Below are positions 54,774 through 61,881 of a DNA stretch of 64,000 nt, piece after piece. The notes below the pieces were generated by a model. That model made no database searches. It saw nothing but the letters and a program-made list of their open reading frames with translations, and was not told the DNA's origin. The stretch's first letter is position 1. Each line of letters starts with the position of its first letter. The stretch is from Falsirhodobacter algicola (GTDB lineage Bacteria > Pseudomonadota > Alphaproteobacteria > Rhodobacterales > Rhodobacteraceae), in assembly GCF_018279165.1 (NCBI RefSeq), contig NZ_CP047289.1:1300501-1364500 (forward strand), written 5' to 3'. Made by a program: the position numbers and the translations under genes.

Positions 54774-54947
54774 TCAGACCGGGGGTTTGCCCCGCAGCCT
54801 GCGCACGATCATCGTCACGACCGAAAGGATCAGGAACATCACGAACAGGAACTGCGCGATGCTTGCCAATGGGTCCGCCGTTCCACCAAAGCCAAGCGCG
54901 GCGGCGATGAGGGCGATGATCGCGAAGGTCAGTGCCCAGCCGAGCAT
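54774..54947 (-). CDS. DUF1328 small membrane protein
   Basis: 57 residues, two membrane spans (WALTFAIIALIAAALGFGG and LASIAQFLFVMFLILSVVTMIV) and a basic tail RRLRGKPPV: the YtjA/UPF0391 family. Function unknown; commonly stress-induced. AAGGAGG before the ATG. A perfect sigma-EcfG promoter lies 46 bases upstream. Confidence 0.93.
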   Translation of the reverse strand: MLGWALTFAIIALIAAALGFGGTADPLASIAQFLFVMFLILSVVTMIVRRLRGKPPV

Positions 54948-54992: not shown

Positions 54993-55018
54993 AACGGCCC
55001 GGCTTGCGTGATTGTTCC
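54993..55018 (-). promoter_or_regulatory. sigma-EcfG promoter of DUF1328 gene
   Basis: Minus strand: GGAAC (55018-55014), 17 bases, CGTT (54996-54993), a perfect match. Expected 5' leader about 40 bases. Confidence 0.75.
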
Positions 55019-55086: not shown

Positions 55087-55284
55087 TCACAGGCGGTGGA
55101 CGAAGTCATCCACCTCACGCTCGGCGTCTTCCTTGCTGCGGCCGTATTTCTGCTGCACGAGGCCGACCATCTCGTCGCGCTTGCCCGCGACCCGGTCGAG
55201 GTCGTCATCCGTCAGGTCGCCCCATTTCTGGCGCGCCTGCCCTTGGAATTCCTTCCACTTGCCGGCGATCTGATCCCAGTTCAT
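55087..55284 (-). CDS. CsbD family stress protein
   Basis: 65 residues. [22 protein letters not shown] and [23 protein letters not shown] are diagnostic of CsbD, a small charged helical hydrophilin-like protein induced by general stress; molecular role unknown. Own EcfG promoter upstream (55315-55340) and terminator downstream. Divergent from the AI-2E family transporter gene. Confidence 0.95.
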
Positions 55285-55314: not shown

Positions 55315-55340
55315 AACGCCGCGCGTGCCGCGCCGGTTCC
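55315..55340 (-). promoter_or_regulatory. sigma-EcfG promoter of csbD
   Basis: Minus strand: GGAAC (55340-55336), 17 bases, CGTT (55318-55315), perfect. Its -35 is separated by four bases from the -35 of the opposite promoter, forming GGTTCC-N4-GGAACC. Confidence 0.78.
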
Positions 55341-55344
55341 CGGC

Positions 55345-55370
55345 GGAACCTGCCCCCACCGGCGGACGTT
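55345..55370 (+). promoter_or_regulatory. sigma-EcfG promoter of the AI-2E family transporter gene
   Basis: GGAAC (55345-55349), 17 bases, CGTT (55367-55370), perfect; about 26 bases before the ATG at 55396, with AGGAG between. Confidence 0.78.
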
Positions 55371-55395: not shown

Positions 55396-56439
55396 ATGGA
55401 CCGGCTGGACCGTCTGGCGCATTACGCCCTCATCTTCCTCGGCGTGTTTGCGTTCTTTGCCGCATTGCGCCTGACGGAGAGCATCACCGCGCCCCTCGTG
55501 CTGGCGCTGGTGACGGGGATCGTGCTGTCGCCCATCTCCTCCTTCGTGGAACGGGCGGGTTTTCGGCCTTGGGTGGGGGCGATGCTGTCGCTCCTACTGA
55601 CGCTGATCATCATCGGCAGCATCGCGGCCGCCATTCAGCCCATGATCATGCAGCTTCTGGAGGCCGCGCCCCAGATCTGGCATCAGATGCAGGGCGTGTT
55701 GGAGGCGGCGCATCGGCTCACCTCCGGCTTCCGCGATATGAGCGCGGGCATCACCGAGGCGTTGCAGCCCCCCGCCCAGCCCAACGATGCCGGGCCGCAG
55801 GCGCCCGATGTCTCCATGCCGACGCTGACGGATGCGCTCTTCTACGCGCCCTCCATCGCGGCGCAGATCCTGATCTTCATCGGGGCGCTGTTCTTTTTCC
55901 AACTGACCCGGACCGAGATCTACAACTGGGCCGCACGCCGCCTGTCGGAACCCGATCACCGGGCGCATACCGCGTTCCGCCTGTTGAATGCCGAACGTCT
56001 GGTGGCGCGGTATTTCCTGACGATCACGGTGATCAACTTCATCGAAGGGGTGCTGGTCGGCAGCGTGATGCAAGCGGCGGGGCTTCCGGGCGGGGCGCTG
56101 TGGGGGTTCGTGGCCTTCCTGATGAACTACCTTCTGTATGTGGGGCCGGCGGTGCTGACGGCGGCGCTCTTGGTGGCCGGGGTTGCCAGCTTTTCGGGCT
56201 GGATGGCGCTGCTGCCCGTCGCTTCCTACCTCGTGATCAACGGGATCGAGGGGCAGTTCGTCACCCCCACGCTGGTGGGTAAGCATACGGCGGTGAACCC
56301 GCTCCTGGTGTTCCTTGCGCTGGTGTTCGGCATGTGGCTGTGGGGGCCGGTGGGGGGGATCATCGCGATCCCGCTGCTGCTGTGGTTCCTTGCGCTGAAC
56401 GACACCCGCTCTGGCCAAATGCACCCGCCGGCGCATTAA
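55396..56439 (+). CDS. AI-2E family transporter
   Basis: 347 residues, about eight membrane spans: pairs at the N-terminus (YALIFLGVFAFFAALRL, ITAPLVLALVTGIVLSPIS, AMLSLLLTLIIIGSIAAAI), a periplasmic or cytosolic helical stretch (about 95-150), then four more spans with INFIEGVLVGSVMQAAGLPG and QFVTPTLVGKHTAVNPLLVFLA. The family includes TqsA and Na+/H+ antiporters; substrate not predictable. Sigma-EcfG promoter upstream, so stress-induced. Convergent with the PLD-like gene, sharing TTAA. Confidence 0.9.
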   Translation: MDRLDRLAHYALIFLGVFAFFAALRLTESITAPLVLALVTGIVLSPISSFVERAGFRPWVGAMLSLLLTLIIIGSIAAAIQPMIMQLLEAAPQIWHQMQGVLEAAHRLTSGFRDMSAGITEALQPPAQPNDAGPQAPDVSMPTLTDALFYAPSIAAQILIFIGALFFFQLTRTEIYNWAARRLSEPDHRAHTAFRLLNAERLVARYFLTITVINFIEGVLVGSVMQAAGLPGGALWGFVAFLMNYLLYVGPAVLTAALLVAGVASFSGWMALLPVASYLVINGIEGQFVTPTLVGKHTAVNPLLVFLALVFGMWLWGPVGGIIAIPLLLWFLALNDTRSGQMHPPAH

Positions 56440-57779
56440 CCGGGGGCGTGGGGCAGCAGGCGGCCCGACCGATCCTGCGGCGCGCAGGCGGCGTTGCGGG
56501 CCGCCAGCGCCGCCCATGCCCGCACGGCGCCGGTGGAGGAAAAGCACTCCGCCCCCGCATCGGCCGGCAACCAATGCCCCATCACGCGCCGCCGCAATTC
56601 CCAGACATCGCGGCGAACGTTCAGATAGACCCCCACCTCCGTGTTCCAGCGCAGCCCCGGCCGATCGAGCGCGGCCGAGCCGAGGATCGCGGCATGATCG
56701 TCGAAGATCGACACAGAGGTCGCCCCCTCGCCCCCACCTACGAAAAGACGCGGGCCGAAAGCCGTCCGCAGATACCGCAGGAGGCGCATCTGCCGCCGAC
56801 GGGCGCGCCATGGCGCGGATGGGCTGGGCAGGATCAGGATCATCTGCAATTCGGGATTGGCGCGAGCCGCGCGCACCAGCCGCCGCGCCGTGAGCGGATC
56901 GCCGAAGGCAGGCGTCTCGATATAGATGAGGGAGCCCGCGCGCTGGATCAGCGCGTCATGGGCCTGCTGCACTTCGGCGACGATGGGCGTGGGGCCGGTA
57001 TGCCACGAGGCCGCGCCGCGGGGCCGCGACAGGCTGCGCAGCAGGCGGCGGGCGGGCGCGGGTGGGCGCAGCCCCTCCACCACGGCAAGGAAACTGTCGA
57101 GATGGGCCAAGGCCTCGGCCACGACCGGGCCTTCCATAACCACCTGCACATCATGCCCGCCCGCCCCATCGGCAAGGTCCGGGCCGCCGACATGCACGCG
57201 CGCCCGGTCGAAGATCAGAAGCGACTGGTGATGCTCGCACAAGGTCGTCCGCGACAGATGCATCCGGCGCGGATGAAGGCGTCCGTCCGCCCCTTGCCGC
57301 AACCGGCTGCGCAGCCCCGGAAGATCGCGCAGCCCGTCCGGGCCTGCGTTCAGGACGGCGCAGATACGGCCAAGGCGGCGCTGCATCGCAGGCCAGCACA
57401 GCGCCCGGGGCAGCAGGCCGCCCGTGGCCGGATGGCGCGCGGCCACCACCTCCAGCAGGGCGGCGGGGCCGGCAAGCTCGGCCGCGGCCCACAGCATGCG
57501 CACGCTGCGCCAACAGGCGCGGTGCCGCGCGGGATGCAGGACAGGATCGACATCCGCCAGAACGAGACGCAGCCGCACCCCCCGGCGCAGCACATGCACG
57601 ATCAGATCGAACCACACCGCCCCAACCGCCTGCCCTTCGGGCGAGTGCAGCGGCAGATGCGGATCGAAGGCGCGAAGAGAGGCGTCGATGCTTGCCGACG
57701 CATCAAGGAAGGCGCGTTCGAGCGCGGGAAAGACCTCGTCCCCCGTGATGAATGTCCGCGTGGATGACCGTCCGCTCAC
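56436..57779 (-). CDS. phospholipase D-like protein with degenerate HKD motifs
   Basis: 447 residues from GTG 57779 (GGGGGCAGG upstream; no better ATG). Overall layout of a two-domain PLD/cardiolipin synthase: first motif region CEHHQSLLIFDRARVHVGG, second region SVSIFDDHAAILGSAALDRPG and RWNTEVGVY. But the HxKxxxxD signature reads HQSLLIFD (184-191, Lys replaced by Ser), and the second reads ATSVSIFD (353-360, His and Lys both lost). So phosphatidyl transfer is unlikely. A one-mismatch EcfG promoter lies upstream and it follows the kinase gene on the same strand. A true PLD protein is encoded 4 kb away. Confidence 0.8.
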   Translation of the reverse strand: MSGRSSTRTFITGDEVFPALERAFLDASASIDASLRAFDPHLPLHSPEGQAVGAVWFDLIVHVLRRGVRLRLVLADVDPVLHPARHRACWRSVRMLWAAAELAGPAALLEVVAARHPATGGLLPRALCWPAMQRRLGRICAVLNAGPDGLRDLPGLRSRLRQGADGRLHPRRMHLSRTTLCEHHQSLLIFDRARVHVGGPDLADGAGGHDVQVVMEGPVVAEALAHLDSFLAVVEGLRPPAPARRLLRSLSRPRGAASWHTGPTPIVAEVQQAHDALIQRAGSLIYIETPAFGDPLTARRLVRAARANPELQMILILPSPSAPWRARRRQMRLLRYLRTAFGPRLFVGGGEGATSVSIFDDHAAILGSAALDRPGLRWNTEVGVYLNVRRDVWELRRRVMGHWLPADAGAECFSSTGAVRAWAALAARNAACAPQDRSGRLLPHAPG

Positions 57780-57822: not shown

Positions 57823-57848
57823 AACCCGCGCTGCGGTCCTAGTGTTCC
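57823..57848 (-). promoter_or_regulatory. candidate sigma-EcfG promoter (one mismatch) of PLD-like gene
   Basis: Minus strand: GGAAC (57848-57844), 17 bases, GGTT (57826-57823). It spans the histidine kinase stop codon and ends 43 bases before the GTG start. Confidence 0.42.
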
Positions 57849-59590
57849 CGATCCCCGCCAGAAATGCGCGCCTCGCCCGTGCTCAGCGGCTCGACCTCGA
57901 AATCGACGCGCAGGGCATAACTAACCTCGTCCTGCGAGATGTCGACCCGTCCGCCGATCTGCTGGGCGAAGGCGATCAGAAGTTGCGAGCCAAGGCCCGT
58001 CCCCTCATTCCCCGTCCCCGCCGAGCGCGGACCGAGCGAGTTCGTCACGACCAGCGCCGCGCGCACCGCCCCCTCGCGGAAGAGGCGCACTTCGAGCGTG
58101 GGATTGCCATCGTGCGATCCGGCATATTTCAATGCATTGGCCAGCGCCTCGGTCAGCAGCAGCGACAGGGGCACCGCCTGATCCGGCGTCAGGCGCATAT
58201 CGGCAAAGGAGGTGCTGAGCGCGATGTGCCGCCCCGGCCCCGTTGCCAGCCGCACCACCTGCCGGGTGATGTCGGTCAGCAATTCGTCGGCGCGGATGTC
58301 GGTCAGGCCGCTGGTCTGGTACAGACCACGGTGGATCGTCGCAAGGCTCATGACCCGTTCCTGCAACCCCTTCATCAGGGATTTCGCCTCGGCCGAGCGG
58401 GCCTGACGGATCTGCATGTTCATGATCGAGGCGATGAGCTGAAGATTGTTCTTCACGCGGTGATGCACCTCGCGCAGCAGAACCTCCTTCTGGTGGATCA
58501 TGTCCTCCATCTCCGCTTCGTCATGCAGGATGGTGTCGGTCATATGCGCGAAGGTTTCCGACAATTCGCGCAGTTCGGTCGGCGCGCCGGCCATCGGGAT
58601 GCGGCCGATGATGCGCTTGCCGTCGCCGAAACCGGTCATCGCCTGACGCAGGCTGCGCACATGGCGCGTGACCAGCCGTTCGACCGCGAGGAAGGCCACG
58701 ACGAGCGAGGCGATCCACATCGCCAGCGGCAGGAACAGGTTCGGCAGCGCCCGCATGTACCAGACATCGTCGTCATCCACCGGCCAACTGCCCATGGCGA
58801 ACAGCGCGTCCGGCAGGATCGGCACTACGGAATAGACGCGCAACTGCCCGCTGCCGGTGCGGGCGGTGAAGGACATATCCTCGGTCGAGGCAAGATCCGC
58901 GAGATTGAGCCCCTCGGGCAGCATCGCCACCACCTGACGGGCCGGCAGGGCGGAGGTCAGCACCTCGCCTTCGGAGTTGAAGGTCAGAAGCTCCGGCGGC
59001 TGGGTGGCGGTGTGTTCGGCCGTGTCGGCTTGCAGCACCTGATGGGGCAGCGACAGGGAGACGAAGCCCAGAAGCTCATTCGTCAGGCCATAGACGGGGG
59101 TGGAGACGACCACCACCGGCTGGGCCGAGATCTTGGGACGGTAAGAGACATAGACCATCGGCCGCGGATCGCGTTGCAGATCCTGAAAGGACGGCACCTC
59201 GGCAATGCTCGTGCCGACGCTGCGCGAGGCGCAGGTCAGCCGGCCGTTCACATCGACGAAGGCCGCGAGGGTGTAGATGTTGGCCTGCCCCACGAAGCTC
59301 GAGAGCGCCGACGAACAGGCGATCGGATCGCTGAGCAGCGGCACCAGCGCCGCCGACAGCGCCTGCGCCGCCCCGCGGGCGCGCTGCACCAGCAGAAGAT
59401 CGGCCTCGGCGGCGCGCATCGTCTCGCCCATGAGGGCGGCTTCGGATCGGGCGCGCGCTTCTTTCAGGGTGGCAATCGTCTGGACCGCCGAAACCATCGC
59501 CAGCGGCAGCAATGCCACCGCCAGCAGGAAGGCGATCCGAAACCCCAGCGTTCCCGACAGCCGGTGCAGCCGGGCCTTCGTCGTCGTCAT
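57839..59590 (-). CDS. membrane sensor histidine kinase (HisKA_2), GSR locus
   Basis: 583 residues. TM1 about 18-38, periplasmic sensor domain about 40-280, TM2 about 283-303, HAMP-like region to about 355, then HisKA_2 dimerisation/phospho-acceptor motif LLREVHHRVKNNLQLIASIM with His377, and HATPase_c with LLLTEALANALKYAG. HisKA_2/HWE kinases phosphorylate PhyR in the general stress response. The gene is the third of nepR-ecfG-kinase; its ATG overlaps the ecfG stop (ATGA). Signal sensed is unknown. Confidence 0.92.
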   Translation of the reverse strand: MTTTKARLHRLSGTLGFRIAFLLAVALLPLAMVSAVQTIATLKEARARSEAALMGETMRAAEADLLLVQRARGAAQALSAALVPLLSDPIACSSALSSFVGQANIYTLAAFVDVNGRLTCASRSVGTSIAEVPSFQDLQRDPRPMVYVSYRPKISAQPVVVVSTPVYGLTNELLGFVSLSLPHQVLQADTAEHTATQPPELLTFNSEGEVLTSALPARQVVAMLPEGLNLADLASTEDMSFTARTGSGQLRVYSVVPILPDALFAMGSWPVDDDDVWYMRALPNLFLPLAMWIASLVVAFLAVERLVTRHVRSLRQAMTGFGDGKRIIGRIPMAGAPTELRELSETFAHMTDTILHDEAEMEDMIHQKEVLLREVHHRVKNNLQLIASIMNMQIRQARSAEAKSLMKGLQERVMSLATIHRGLYQTSGLTDIRADELLTDITRQVVRLATGPGRHIALSTSFADMRLTPDQAVPLSLLLTEALANALKYAGSHDGNPTLEVRLFREGAVRAALVVTNSLGPRSAGTGNEGTGLGSQLLIAFAQQIGGRVDISQDEVSYALRVDFEVEPLSTGEARISGGDREH

Positions 59591-60171
59591 GCAGCATTCG
59601 TTCCCGATTTCGACATCACGGCCATCGTGGTGCCGTCGTTACCGGAGAACACCTGCTCGCCTTCGTCAAGATGCAGAAGTTCGGCAAGACGTGCCCGGGC
59701 GCGGTTGGCGCGGCTTTTCACCGTGCCGACGGCGACGCCCATCATGCCCGCCGCATCCTCGTACGAGAACCCGGACGCCCCGACGAGGATCAGCACCTCG
59801 CGGTGTTCCGGGGTCAGTTTGTCGAAGGCGGCGCTGAATTCGTTGAAGGCCATGCGACCGTCATGGTCGGGCTTCACGAAGAGCGTGGCGGCATGCGCGC
59901 CTTCGGGGTCGGGCACCTCGCGGCGATTCTTGCGCCGGTCGGAATAGAAGGTGTTGCGCAGGATCGTGAACAACCACGCCCGAAGGTTGGTGCCCACGGT
60001 GAATTTGTCGAAATTCGTCCACGCCTTCACGATCGTGTCCTGCACCAGATCATCGGCCACGGTGACATTGCGCGTGAGCGAGATGGCGAAGGCCCGAAGC
60101 GCGGGCAGGTGATCGGGAAGTTCATCCCGGGGGTCCCGAACGCCTTCGGGCAGACGCTGTTCAGCGGTCAT
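59587..60171 (-). CDS. ecfG: ECF sigma factor EcfG (general stress response)
   Basis: 194 residues. Sigma-2 region LVQDTIVKAWTNFDKF and AWLFTILRNTFYSDRRKNRRE; sigma-4 region FDKLTPEHREVLILVGASG, YEDAAGMMGVAVGTVKSRANRAR. Its location between nepR and a HisKA_2 kinase, with phyR divergent, identifies ECF15/EcfG. It directs transcription from GGAAC-N16/17-CGTT promoters, many of which occur nearby. Overlaps nepR and the kinase by four bases each. Confidence 0.94.
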   Translation of the reverse strand: MTAEQRLPEGVRDPRDELPDHLPALRAFAISLTRNVTVADDLVQDTIVKAWTNFDKFTVGTNLRAWLFTILRNTFYSDRRKNRREVPDPEGAHAATLFVKPDHDGRMAFNEFSAAFDKLTPEHREVLILVGASGFSYEDAAGMMGVAVGTVKSRANRARARLAELLHLDEGEQVFSGNDGTTMAVMSKSGTNAA

Positions 60172-60314
60172 GCCTTGGCTCCCTTCTCGCGCAGCTGTGC
60201 AAGCAGCTGTGCGAAACGGTCCGGGACATCCTGCTCCAGCGCTTCGGTGTAAACCCGTTTCAGATTCTCATCGATCTGATGAAGCATCGCGGGTTTCTCG
60301 CGCTCTTTGGCCAT
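60168..60314 (-). CDS. nepR: anti-sigma factor NepR
   Basis: 48 residues. LHQIDENLKRVYTEALEQD and VPDRFAQLLAQLREKG are the two NepR helices that bind EcfG and, in stress, phosphorylated PhyR. Too short for usual length cut-offs. ATG 60314; stop overlaps the ecfG ATG (ATGA), so both are made in a fixed ratio. Perfect EcfG promoter upstream (60363-60387). Confidence 0.93.
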   Translation of the reverse strand: MAKEREKPAMLHQIDENLKRVYTEALEQDVPDRFAQLLAQLREKGAKA

Positions 60315-60355
60315 TTGTTCCAATTCTCGCTCTTTTCGATTTTGCGATCTTGTCG

Positions 60356-60380
60356 GGAACCGAACGCGATGCCAAGTGTT
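60356..60380 (+). promoter_or_regulatory. sigma-EcfG promoter of phyR
   Basis: GGAAC (60356-60360), 16 bases, TGTT (60377-60380), one mismatch in the -10. About 37 bases before the phyR ATG. Interleaved with the opposite promoter. Confidence 0.65.
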
Positions 60381-60387
60381 TGGTTCC
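60363..60387 (-). promoter_or_regulatory. sigma-EcfG promoter of nepR-ecfG-kinase
   Basis: Minus strand: GGAAC (60387-60383), 16 bases, CGTT (60366-60363), perfect. Ends 49 bases before the nepR ATG. Shares 18 bases with the phyR promoter; both lie in a GGGAACC/GGTTCCC inverted repeat (60355-60388). Confidence 0.8.
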
Positions 60388-60416
60388 CGAGAAAATGAGC
60401 TTGAAGGGGACATTCC

Positions 60417-61226
60417 ATGCCGTCGGACGCCACGCCAGACCTGTCGATGCTGATCGGGGCGAACCTCCCCTACTTGCGCCGTTACGCACGCGCGCTGACC
60501 GGCAGCCAGTCCACGGGCGACGCCTTCGCTGCCGCCACGCTGGAGGCCATTCTCGAAGATACCGCCATCTTCGACGAAGCCGGTAACCCCAAGGTCGCCC
60601 TGTTCAGCGCCTTCCACCTCGTCTGGGCCAGCGCCGGTGCGCCCCTTGGCGAACCCGACAGCCGCCTGTCGGCCAAGGCGCAGGACCGCATGGCGGAGCT
60701 GACGCCGAACACCCGCGAAGCGCTGCTTTTGCACGCGATCGAGGGGTTCACCCATGAAGAGATCGGCGCAATCATGCAGGTCGAGCCCGGCGAGGCTTCC
60801 GAGCTGATCGAGATCGCGCAGCGCGAGATGGCCAATTCCGTGCGCGGCAAGATCATGATCATCGAGGACGAGGCCATCATCGCGATGGACATCGCCGCCA
60901 TCGTCAAAGAGATGGGGCATGACATCACCGGCATCGCCCGCACCCGCACCGAGGCCGTGAACCTCGCCGCCCGCGACAAGCCCGACCTGATCCTTGCCGA
61001 CATCCAGCTTGCCGACAATTCCTCGGGGATCGACGCGGTCAACGACATCCTGCAGCAGTTCGAGAATCTGCCCGTGATCTTCATCACGGCCTTCCCCGAG
61101 CGGCTGCTGACGGGCAAGAAGCACGAGCCGGCGTTCCTGATCACCAAGCCCTATCACGAGGATCAGGTGCGATCGGCGGTCAGCCAAGCGATGTTCTTCT
61201 CCTCGACCGAGACGTTGACGGCGTAG
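60417..61226 (+). CDS. phyR: PhyR, stress response regulator (sigma-like plus receiver)
   Basis: 269 residues. N-terminal sigma-like domain (about 8-140) mimicking EcfG to bind NepR, C-terminal receiver domain with acidic Glu150-Asp151, phospho-acceptor Asp195 (LADIQLAD), Thr224 in the FITAFPERLLTG motif typical of PhyR, and Lys244 (ITKPY). Phosphorylated PhyR sequesters NepR and frees EcfG. Divergent from nepR-ecfG with overlapping promoters. Confidence 0.95.
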   Translation: MPSDATPDLSMLIGANLPYLRRYARALTGSQSTGDAFAAATLEAILEDTAIFDEAGNPKVALFSAFHLVWASAGAPLGEPDSRLSAKAQDRMAELTPNTREALLLHAIEGFTHEEIGAIMQVEPGEASELIEIAQREMANSVRGKIMIIEDEAIIAMDIAAIVKEMGHDITGIARTRTEAVNLAARDKPDLILADIQLADNSSGIDAVNDILQQFENLPVIFITAFPERLLTGKKHEPAFLITKPYHEDQVRSAVSQAMFFSSTETLTA

Positions 61227-61311: not shown

Positions 61312-61337
61312 GGAACAAGCCGCCCCGGGATCGCGTT
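61312..61337 (+). promoter_or_regulatory. sigma-EcfG promoter of the 164-residue secreted protein
   Basis: GGAAC (61312-61316), 17 bases, CGTT (61334-61337), perfect; 49 bases before the ATG at 61387. Confidence 0.75.
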
Positions 61338-61386: not shown

Positions 61387-61881
61387 ATGCTTCGCACGAT
61401 CCTGTCTTCGGCCGCACTCGCGGCTCTCGTGGCCCTTCCCATCCAAGCGCAAGAACGCTTCGACGAGATCAATGTCGGCGTCGATCTGAACCAGGTCACC
61501 AGCCCCGAAGCCGCGGCCCGCTATGCCAATATCAGCGATGATCTGGTGAAGGCGATCGGCGACGCGCTGAGCGTGACGCCCGCCGGCACGGCCGATGGCG
61601 GTGCGAAAATCGTGGTGGATCTGGACGAGGTCGCCCTTGCCGCGCCGTTCGTGGGCACGCCGGGCGCCAGCACCTCGGCCATGGCGGGCACCGTCGCCGT
61701 CGAAGATCAGGGCGACATCGGCAGCCAGCGCAAATTCGATCTGACCGTGACGATGGATCAGATCATGCCCTACATGCCCGAAAACACCGACATGACCGTG
61801 ATCGAACCGTCGAGCGATGCCGTCTATCAGGCGCTGCTGCAGACCTTCGCCGCCGCCGTGGTCTCGAACCTCGAAGGCTGA
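61387..61881 (+). CDS. secreted protein of unknown function under sigma-EcfG control
   Basis: 164 residues with a signal peptide (ALAALVALPIQAQ, cleaved near residue 22). The mature protein begins ERFDEINVGVDLNQVTSPEA and contains alternating strands (KIVVDLDEVALAA, GTVAVEDQGDIGSQRKFDLTVTMDQ), ending in a helix YQALLQTFAAAVVSNLEG. Acidic, no cysteines, so no disulphides. I do not recognise the family. It has its own perfect sigma-EcfG promoter and sits immediately after phyR. GAGAGAAAAGA precedes the ATG. Confidence 0.85.
   Translation: MLRTILSSAALAALVALPIQAQERFDEINVGVDLNQVTSPEAAARYANISDDLVKAIGDALSVTPAGTADGGAKIVVDLDEVALAAPFVGTPGASTSAMAGTVAVEDQGDIGSQRKFDLTVTMDQIMPYMPENTDMTVIEPSSDAVYQALLQTFAAAVVSNLEG

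Follow-up and report, generated by a model that had tools for sequence, protein, structure and literature searches.

Interleaved, divergent candidate sigma-EcfG promoters between phyR and nepR share a geometry conserved across the family

The window analysed here is a single stretch of 64,000 nucleotides from Falsirhodobacter algicola, and all positions are counted from its first letter. It contains a PhyR-NepR-EcfG locus in which phyR is divergent from nepR-ecfG and a sensor kinase of the HWE/HisKA2 type is encoded nearby. The genes of the locus are:

57839-59590, minus strand: HisKA_2-family sensor kinase, its start overlapping the end of ecfG
59587-60171, minus strand: ecfG, ECF sigma factor (sigma-70 r2/r4), its start overlapping the end of nepR
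60171-60314, minus strand: nepR, anti-sigma factor of 48 aa (Pfam NepR, E 8e-16)
60417-61226, plus strand: phyR, anti-sigma antagonist response regulator (PhyR_sigma2, PhyR_sigma-like, Response_reg)

The commonest arrangement in the Alphaproteobacteria places ecfG-nepR divergent from phyR, with both units driven by EcfG, a co-regulation that, as was proposed earlier, probably keeps the stoichiometry of the partner switch (PMC4814048). The promoter consensus of sigma-EcfG (ECF15) is GGAAC-N16/17-C/GGTT (PMC4814048, PMC12148442). Between phyR and nepR the window holds the following features:

60354-60389, no strand: the whole interleaved element, CGGGAACC GAACGCGATGCCAAGTGTTT GGTTCCCG, read directly from the sequence
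60356-60360, plus strand: GGAAC, -35 box of the candidate rightward (phyR) promoter
60377-60380, plus strand: TGTT, -10 box of the candidate rightward promoter after an N16 spacer, its first base off the C/GGTT consensus
60383-60387, minus strand (reads 60387-60383): GGAAC, -35 box of the candidate leftward (nepR-ecfG) promoter
60363-60366, minus strand (reads 60366-60363): CGTT, -10 box of the candidate leftward promoter after an N16 spacer

The leftward site, GGAAC-N16-CGTT, is an exact match to the sigma-EcfG consensus, while the rightward site, GGAAC-N16-TGTT, fits it with one mismatch at the first -10 position. Both sites are read at these positions just as an earlier note on this DNA had described them, one directed toward phyR and the other toward nepR-ecfG-kinase, and the interdigitation that it had claimed can be seen directly: the -10 box of each promoter lies inside the spacer of the other, between its -35 and -10. 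No box is common to the two promoters and both bipartite promoters are complete. Their cores overlap by 32 bp, and the distinct -10 boxes are 10 bp apart in the window element and 10-12 bp apart across the family. The ends of the element form a perfect inverted repeat, as previously noted, although the arms are 8 bp, CGGGAACC at 60354-60361 and GGTTCCCG at 60382-60389, and so one base longer than the GGGAACC/GGTTCCC given before. Assuming, by analogy, a distance of 7 bp from each -10 to its transcription start predicts starts at about 60387 (rightward) and about 60356 (leftward), approximately 31 bp apart, with 5' UTRs of about 29 nt for phyR and about 41 nt for nepR. Because the predicted starts lie outside the pair, the promoters are best described as divergent and overlapping: cores on opposite strands overlap, from box positions that are read, and the transcripts diverge, from starts that are predicted. 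The term "face-to-face" used by the earlier note is therefore a misfit.

Further EcfG-type sites lie around the locus. At 55315-55370 there is a second divergent EcfG-type pair, arranged back-to-back, with both sites GGAAC-N17-CGTT and 4 bp between the -35 boxes; it lies between two genes:

55087-55284, minus strand: CsbD gene
55396-56439, plus strand: AI-2E-family transporter gene

Single EcfG-type sites are found at 54993-55018, upstream of a DUF1328 gene (54774-54947, minus strand), at 57823-57848, upstream of a PLD-like gene (56436-57779, minus strand), and at 61312-61337, upstream of the gene directly downstream of phyR (61387-61881, plus strand), for which no Pfam match was found. The loose EcfG motif is found nine times in the window against 2.4 expected by chance, and the clustering of such sites around the locus suggests a small EcfG regulon. 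In the whole genome, GGGAAC-N16-YGTT occurs at 17 places, compared with 10 for the reversed control, and among these 17 only the two sites at phyR/nepR overlap on opposite strands. The same genome encodes an EcfG-like paralogue with a weaker PF22029 match (G000:C1:2181067-2181324), about 80 bp upstream of which is an EcfG-type site, GGGAAC-N16-CGTT; this is a second, possibly autoregulated sigma factor.

We collected phyR loci from the family, genus and class of the window and from a set of named public genomes. Profiles located PhyR, NepR and EcfG in them, and on each strand of every phyR/nepR intergenic the best EcfG-type site was chosen independently. The named members of the family, which include Falsirhodobacter, Thioclava and Cereibacter, suggest that it is Rhodobacteraceae in the broad sense. 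Of 187 sources scanned, 140 contain exactly one phyR and one nepR, 33 contain neither, 13 contain phyR only and 1 contains nepR only; phyR and nepR are divergent in all 140 paired loci. The family contributes 108 of these loci, comprising 100 distinct intergenics and eight exact duplicates. Four of the 32 others were skipped for an implausible intergenic length, and the remaining 28 include L146, a Silicimonas MAG belonging to the family, leaving 27 outside loci. The one-per-genus draw provided 70 loci (L039-L108), from which six without a phyR/nepR pair were dropped, and in the named set one locus (L135) has no title more specific than Alphaproteobacteria. The counts leave out receiver-only loci (L149-L183) and order-level loci (L260-L283). 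With PF22029 at E 1e-12, 76 of 149 family genomes give no match, and among the 73 matches some seem to be EcfG alone; PhyR thus seems to be missing in roughly half of the sampled family genera, or in more.

The comparison of this intergenic across the family, which the earlier note had suggested, revealed the interleaved geometry (best-site offset of 6-8 bp) in 97 of the 100 distinct family phyR/nepR intergenics, relatedness being ignored in this and the other family counts. Within three partly overlapping subsets it is present in 61 of 64 loci from the one-genome-per-genus draw, in all 35 named public genomes counted and in all seven members of the genus. The family members that lack the pair are L065, L074 and L089, where one or both good sites are missing, and also the Silicimonas MAG, inclusion of which gives 97 of 101. 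Both GGAAC and both GTT boxes are intact on both sides in 84 of the 97 interleaved loci, the other 13 having a mismatch in a box, and both -10s are CGTT in 59. CGTT is the commonest -10 form on either side in the family and is chosen as the best -10 at similar frequency on the two sides (76 and 75 of 100); in the genus of the window it is the -10 in 7/7 on the nepR (leftward) side versus 2/7 on the phyR (rightward) side. The locus of Cereibacter johrii (L113), which we take to be a congener of R. sphaeroides, has an interleaved pair with CGTT on both sides. Single-base shuffling of the 100 family intergenics, 50 times each and preserving single-base content alone, produced an offset of 6-8 bp in 45 of 5000 shuffles; when the combined box penalty was also limited to at most 2.5, this fell to 0 of 5000, compared with 96 of the 100 real intergenics. 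In a PhyR tree of 58 rows, interleaving is also present in the deep-branching family members L071, L080, L087 and L097, but because the midpoint root is for display and each of the two outside loci with an offset of 6 (L204, L256) has one weak box, no ancestral state is claimed for the layout. Sequence and family-wide conservation agree with the earlier proposal of two interleaved sigma-EcfG promoters on opposite strands, and both promoters are very probably real.

The information content of the alignments shows where the element is constrained. In the two commonest length classes (29 and 21 loci, non-redundant), GGAAC and GTT reach 1.5-2.0 bits per position, and the base that opens each -10 has 0.8-1.5. 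Bases adjoining the boxes hold no more than 1.4. In the centre, seven or eight bases have values of 0.1-0.2; the left flank ranges over 0-0.6, and the right flank rises to at most 1.0, in A-rich stretches. Conservation of the boxes is partly built in, because the sites were chosen by those boxes; the low values of the flanks and centre indicate that the surrounding sequence turned over while the geometry was kept. Family loci frequently have A-rich stretches immediately after the predicted phyR start (right flank) and T-rich stretches on the left, the latter corresponding to an A-rich nepR leader. Eight combinations of the two edge gaps and the centre occur, but every one of the 97 interleaved loci has spacers of 16 or 17 bp on both sides, even though spacers of 15 and 18 bp were permitted at a penalty. 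Permuting the centre length among 61 loci of the draw, again ignoring relatedness, gave on average 82% valid loci over 20,000 trials and never 100%. The length of the outer repeat is 31, 32 or 33 bp in 15, 48 and 34 of the 97 loci respectively.

The element can also be searched for without reference to genes. The strict pattern GGAACNNAACN{11,13}GTTNNGTTCC is found in 98 of 394 family genomes, one of which (G720) holds two matches, while a reversed control is found in one genome. All 30 strict matches for which loci were fetched, several of them from genomes already in the first set, lie at nepR, and 29 also have phyR on the opposite strand; the thirtieth, which lacks phyR, is at a contig end. 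Among 385 genomes of the class, two family members have the pattern, as does 1 of 380 others, although this rarity outside the family is partly a rarity of the locus, because many of the 380 genomes lack phyR. In a class draw of 289 genomes, 59 passed a PhyR-domain search at E 1e-18, a number that includes family members and some EcfG-only matches. A wider use of the element was considered and rejected, as the sole strict match outside the family (G358, L311) is not a divergent pair; judged by eye, it is flanked by a receiver-like ORF and, on its opposite side, by the 3' end of a second ORF.

In other families the best sites are back-to-back, with offsets of -31 to -34, in 10 of the 27 outside loci, one of which has a weak box. 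Other outside loci have sites further apart or no clear pair; four are at an offset of +2, two with a weak box, and two (L204, L256) are at +6, each with one weak box. In L232 and L235, from one other family, the offset is +2 and each -10 (GGTT) overlaps the -35 of the other promoter, which may represent a closer overlap still, or may arise artificially because GGTTCC matches both boxes. Since these other-family loci and the pair at 55315-55370 in the window are back-to-back, overlap is not the sole way in which EcfG could drive divergent genes.

There are several ways to account for the element other than as a pair of competing promoters. That two motif matches overlap by chance might be considered because chance alone predicts 2.4 loose matches in the window, but this can be rejected as having a negligible probability given the shuffles (0 of 5000 versus 96 of 100 real intergenics), the family-wide conservation and the gene-blind pattern. 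The perfect 8-bp arms could suggest that a dimeric transcription factor uses the inverted repeat as its operator. This is very improbable, as the inner AAC/GTT boxes are kept and the arms equal the published EcfG -35 (PMC4814048, PMC3892343), and it was rejected because the arm spacing varies from 31 to 33 bp while the promoter spacers remain at 16-17 bp. Variable arm spacing together with fixed promoter spacers is the requirement expected of overlapping promoters, unlike an operator. It is also improbable that only the leftward nepR-ecfG promoter is active, the rightward motif being weak or vestigial and phyR being expressed mainly by other means. In R. sphaeroides under membrane stress ecfG mRNA increases in a PhyR-dependent manner while phyR mRNA is unchanged (PMC5830050), and the CGTT counts within the genus also favour the nepR side; against this, CGTT is about evenly distributed between the two sides across the family, is present on both sides in Cereibacter johrii, and phyR expression in R. 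etli is severely reduced without EcfG1 (PMC3892343).

A frozen accident, in which the overlapping promoters are real, the ancestral layout was kept since moving it needs many simultaneous changes, and occupancy is too low for competition, deserves more weight, although we consider it unlikely. The element is nearly family-wide with few losses, as for an inherited trait, and competition is negligible at basal activity in E. coli, where five of five promoters tested had basal activity too low for it (PMC12825309). In other families the same genes are often preceded by separated promoters, so the response can do without overlap. However, the inner and outer gaps have varied with both spacers maintained, so simple freezing does not describe the element, and EcfG promoters should be highly occupied under stress, which would let competition appear.

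The divergent phyR and nepR-ecfG units already described in Alphaproteobacteria (PMC4814048, PMC3892343) have the same genes, layout, promoter consensus and autoregulation as the locus studied here; the passages considered here report EcfG promoters for both units and describe neither overlap nor relative geometry. No description of the overlap was found in the running text of the literature searched, including passages of PMC4814048, PMC5830050, PMC12825309, PMC12148442, PMC7083833, PMC3892343 and PMC10673084. One figure of PMC12148442 marks predicted EcfG promoters at the two Rubellimicrobium thermophilum loci, and the promoters of both directions may be among them.

The bidirectional promoters of E. 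coli (Warman et al., PMC12825309) are similar in that pseudo-symmetrical DNA binds polymerase in one of two orientations to give divergent RNAs, but differ in being housekeeping promoters whose two directions share a -10 element, the distance between starts commonly being 18, 10 or 23 bp. The phyR element would use an ECF sigma factor and has predicted starts about 31 bp apart and no shared box, and so falls outside the definition of a bidirectional promoter used in PMC12825309, by a shared -10 with the starts flanking it or lying within it. In the E. coli promoters competition matters only at high activity, where it lowers noise; strengthening one direction cut the other, through competition for polymerase, at all but one of those tested, and the forward/reverse ratio was unaffected by polymerase concentration (PMC12825309). 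As competition is confined to high activity, any effect at the phyR element should show under stress. The architecture itself is real and strongly conserved, and is a variant of divergent overlapping or bidirectional promoters. Divergent overlapping promoters in general, such as those of the E. coli biotin and arginine operons, combine divergent transcription with overlapping cores. The phyR element differs from these in that one alternative sigma factor would drive both directions, with the sigma factor encoded on one side, antagonists encoded on both, and a geometry conserved across the family.

Our preferred reading, which we regard as probably correct, is that the element is a bidirectional sigma-EcfG promoter that would split initiation, one polymerase at a time, at a fixed ratio between PhyR and NepR-EcfG. 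That the two polymerases would physically exclude each other, as the earlier note had supposed, is very likely: it is expected from the 32-bp overlap of the cores, and the sequence and its family-wide conservation support it. EcfG-RNA polymerase would bind the element in one orientation or the other, never both, and the melted bubble of either promoter would reach the -35 of the other. Each arriving holoenzyme would serve either phyR or nepR-ecfG(-kinase), with chances proportional to the two affinities. The ratio of activator to anti-sigma/sigma synthesis would then be constant at every level of free EcfG, with both outputs saturating together, while for separate promoters of unequal affinity the ratio would drift as EcfG rises. 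By simple occupancy arithmetic, the ratio stays constant if the sites are exclusive and drifts approximately 9-fold if they are independent and differ 10-fold in affinity. Because exclusion acts per binding event, a constant ratio of outputs is likelier than an either/or state, and because the same sigma factor drives both arms, autoregulation would amplify PhyR, NepR and EcfG without shifting their proportions; feedback gain would change and stoichiometry would not. The regulatory meaning proposed earlier, that mutual exclusion of PhyR and NepR-EcfG transcription could shape feedback or noise, is a plausible hypothesis.

In the genus of the window the leftward side keeps the consensus -10, so output should be biased toward nepR-ecfG. 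In R. sphaeroides, singlet oxygen, superoxide and diamide increase phyR mRNA 2-3 fold and do not increase ecfG mRNA (PMC5830050). The response to membrane stress would not be predicted for a plain fixed-ratio splitter unless phyR were also transcribed in some other way. Taken together, these mRNA data speak against simple equal sharing, and fit extra phyR transcription, a strong leftward bias, or both. That fixing the output ratio is the selected function of the element is possible, at somewhat less than an even chance, and we suggest more tentatively still that interdigitated, exclusive ECF promoters have been selected across the whole family as a passive ratio-setter in a partner-switching circuit.

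The PhyR/NepR/EcfG partner switches depend on the ratio of sigma factor to anti-sigma factor to antagonist, under strong autoregulation, and a conserved DNA geometry could fix the ratio of these partners without an extra regulator. Related clades with back-to-back promoters provide natural controls. If true, this would extend the idea of the bacterial bidirectional promoter to ECF sigma factors and to a layout without a shared box.
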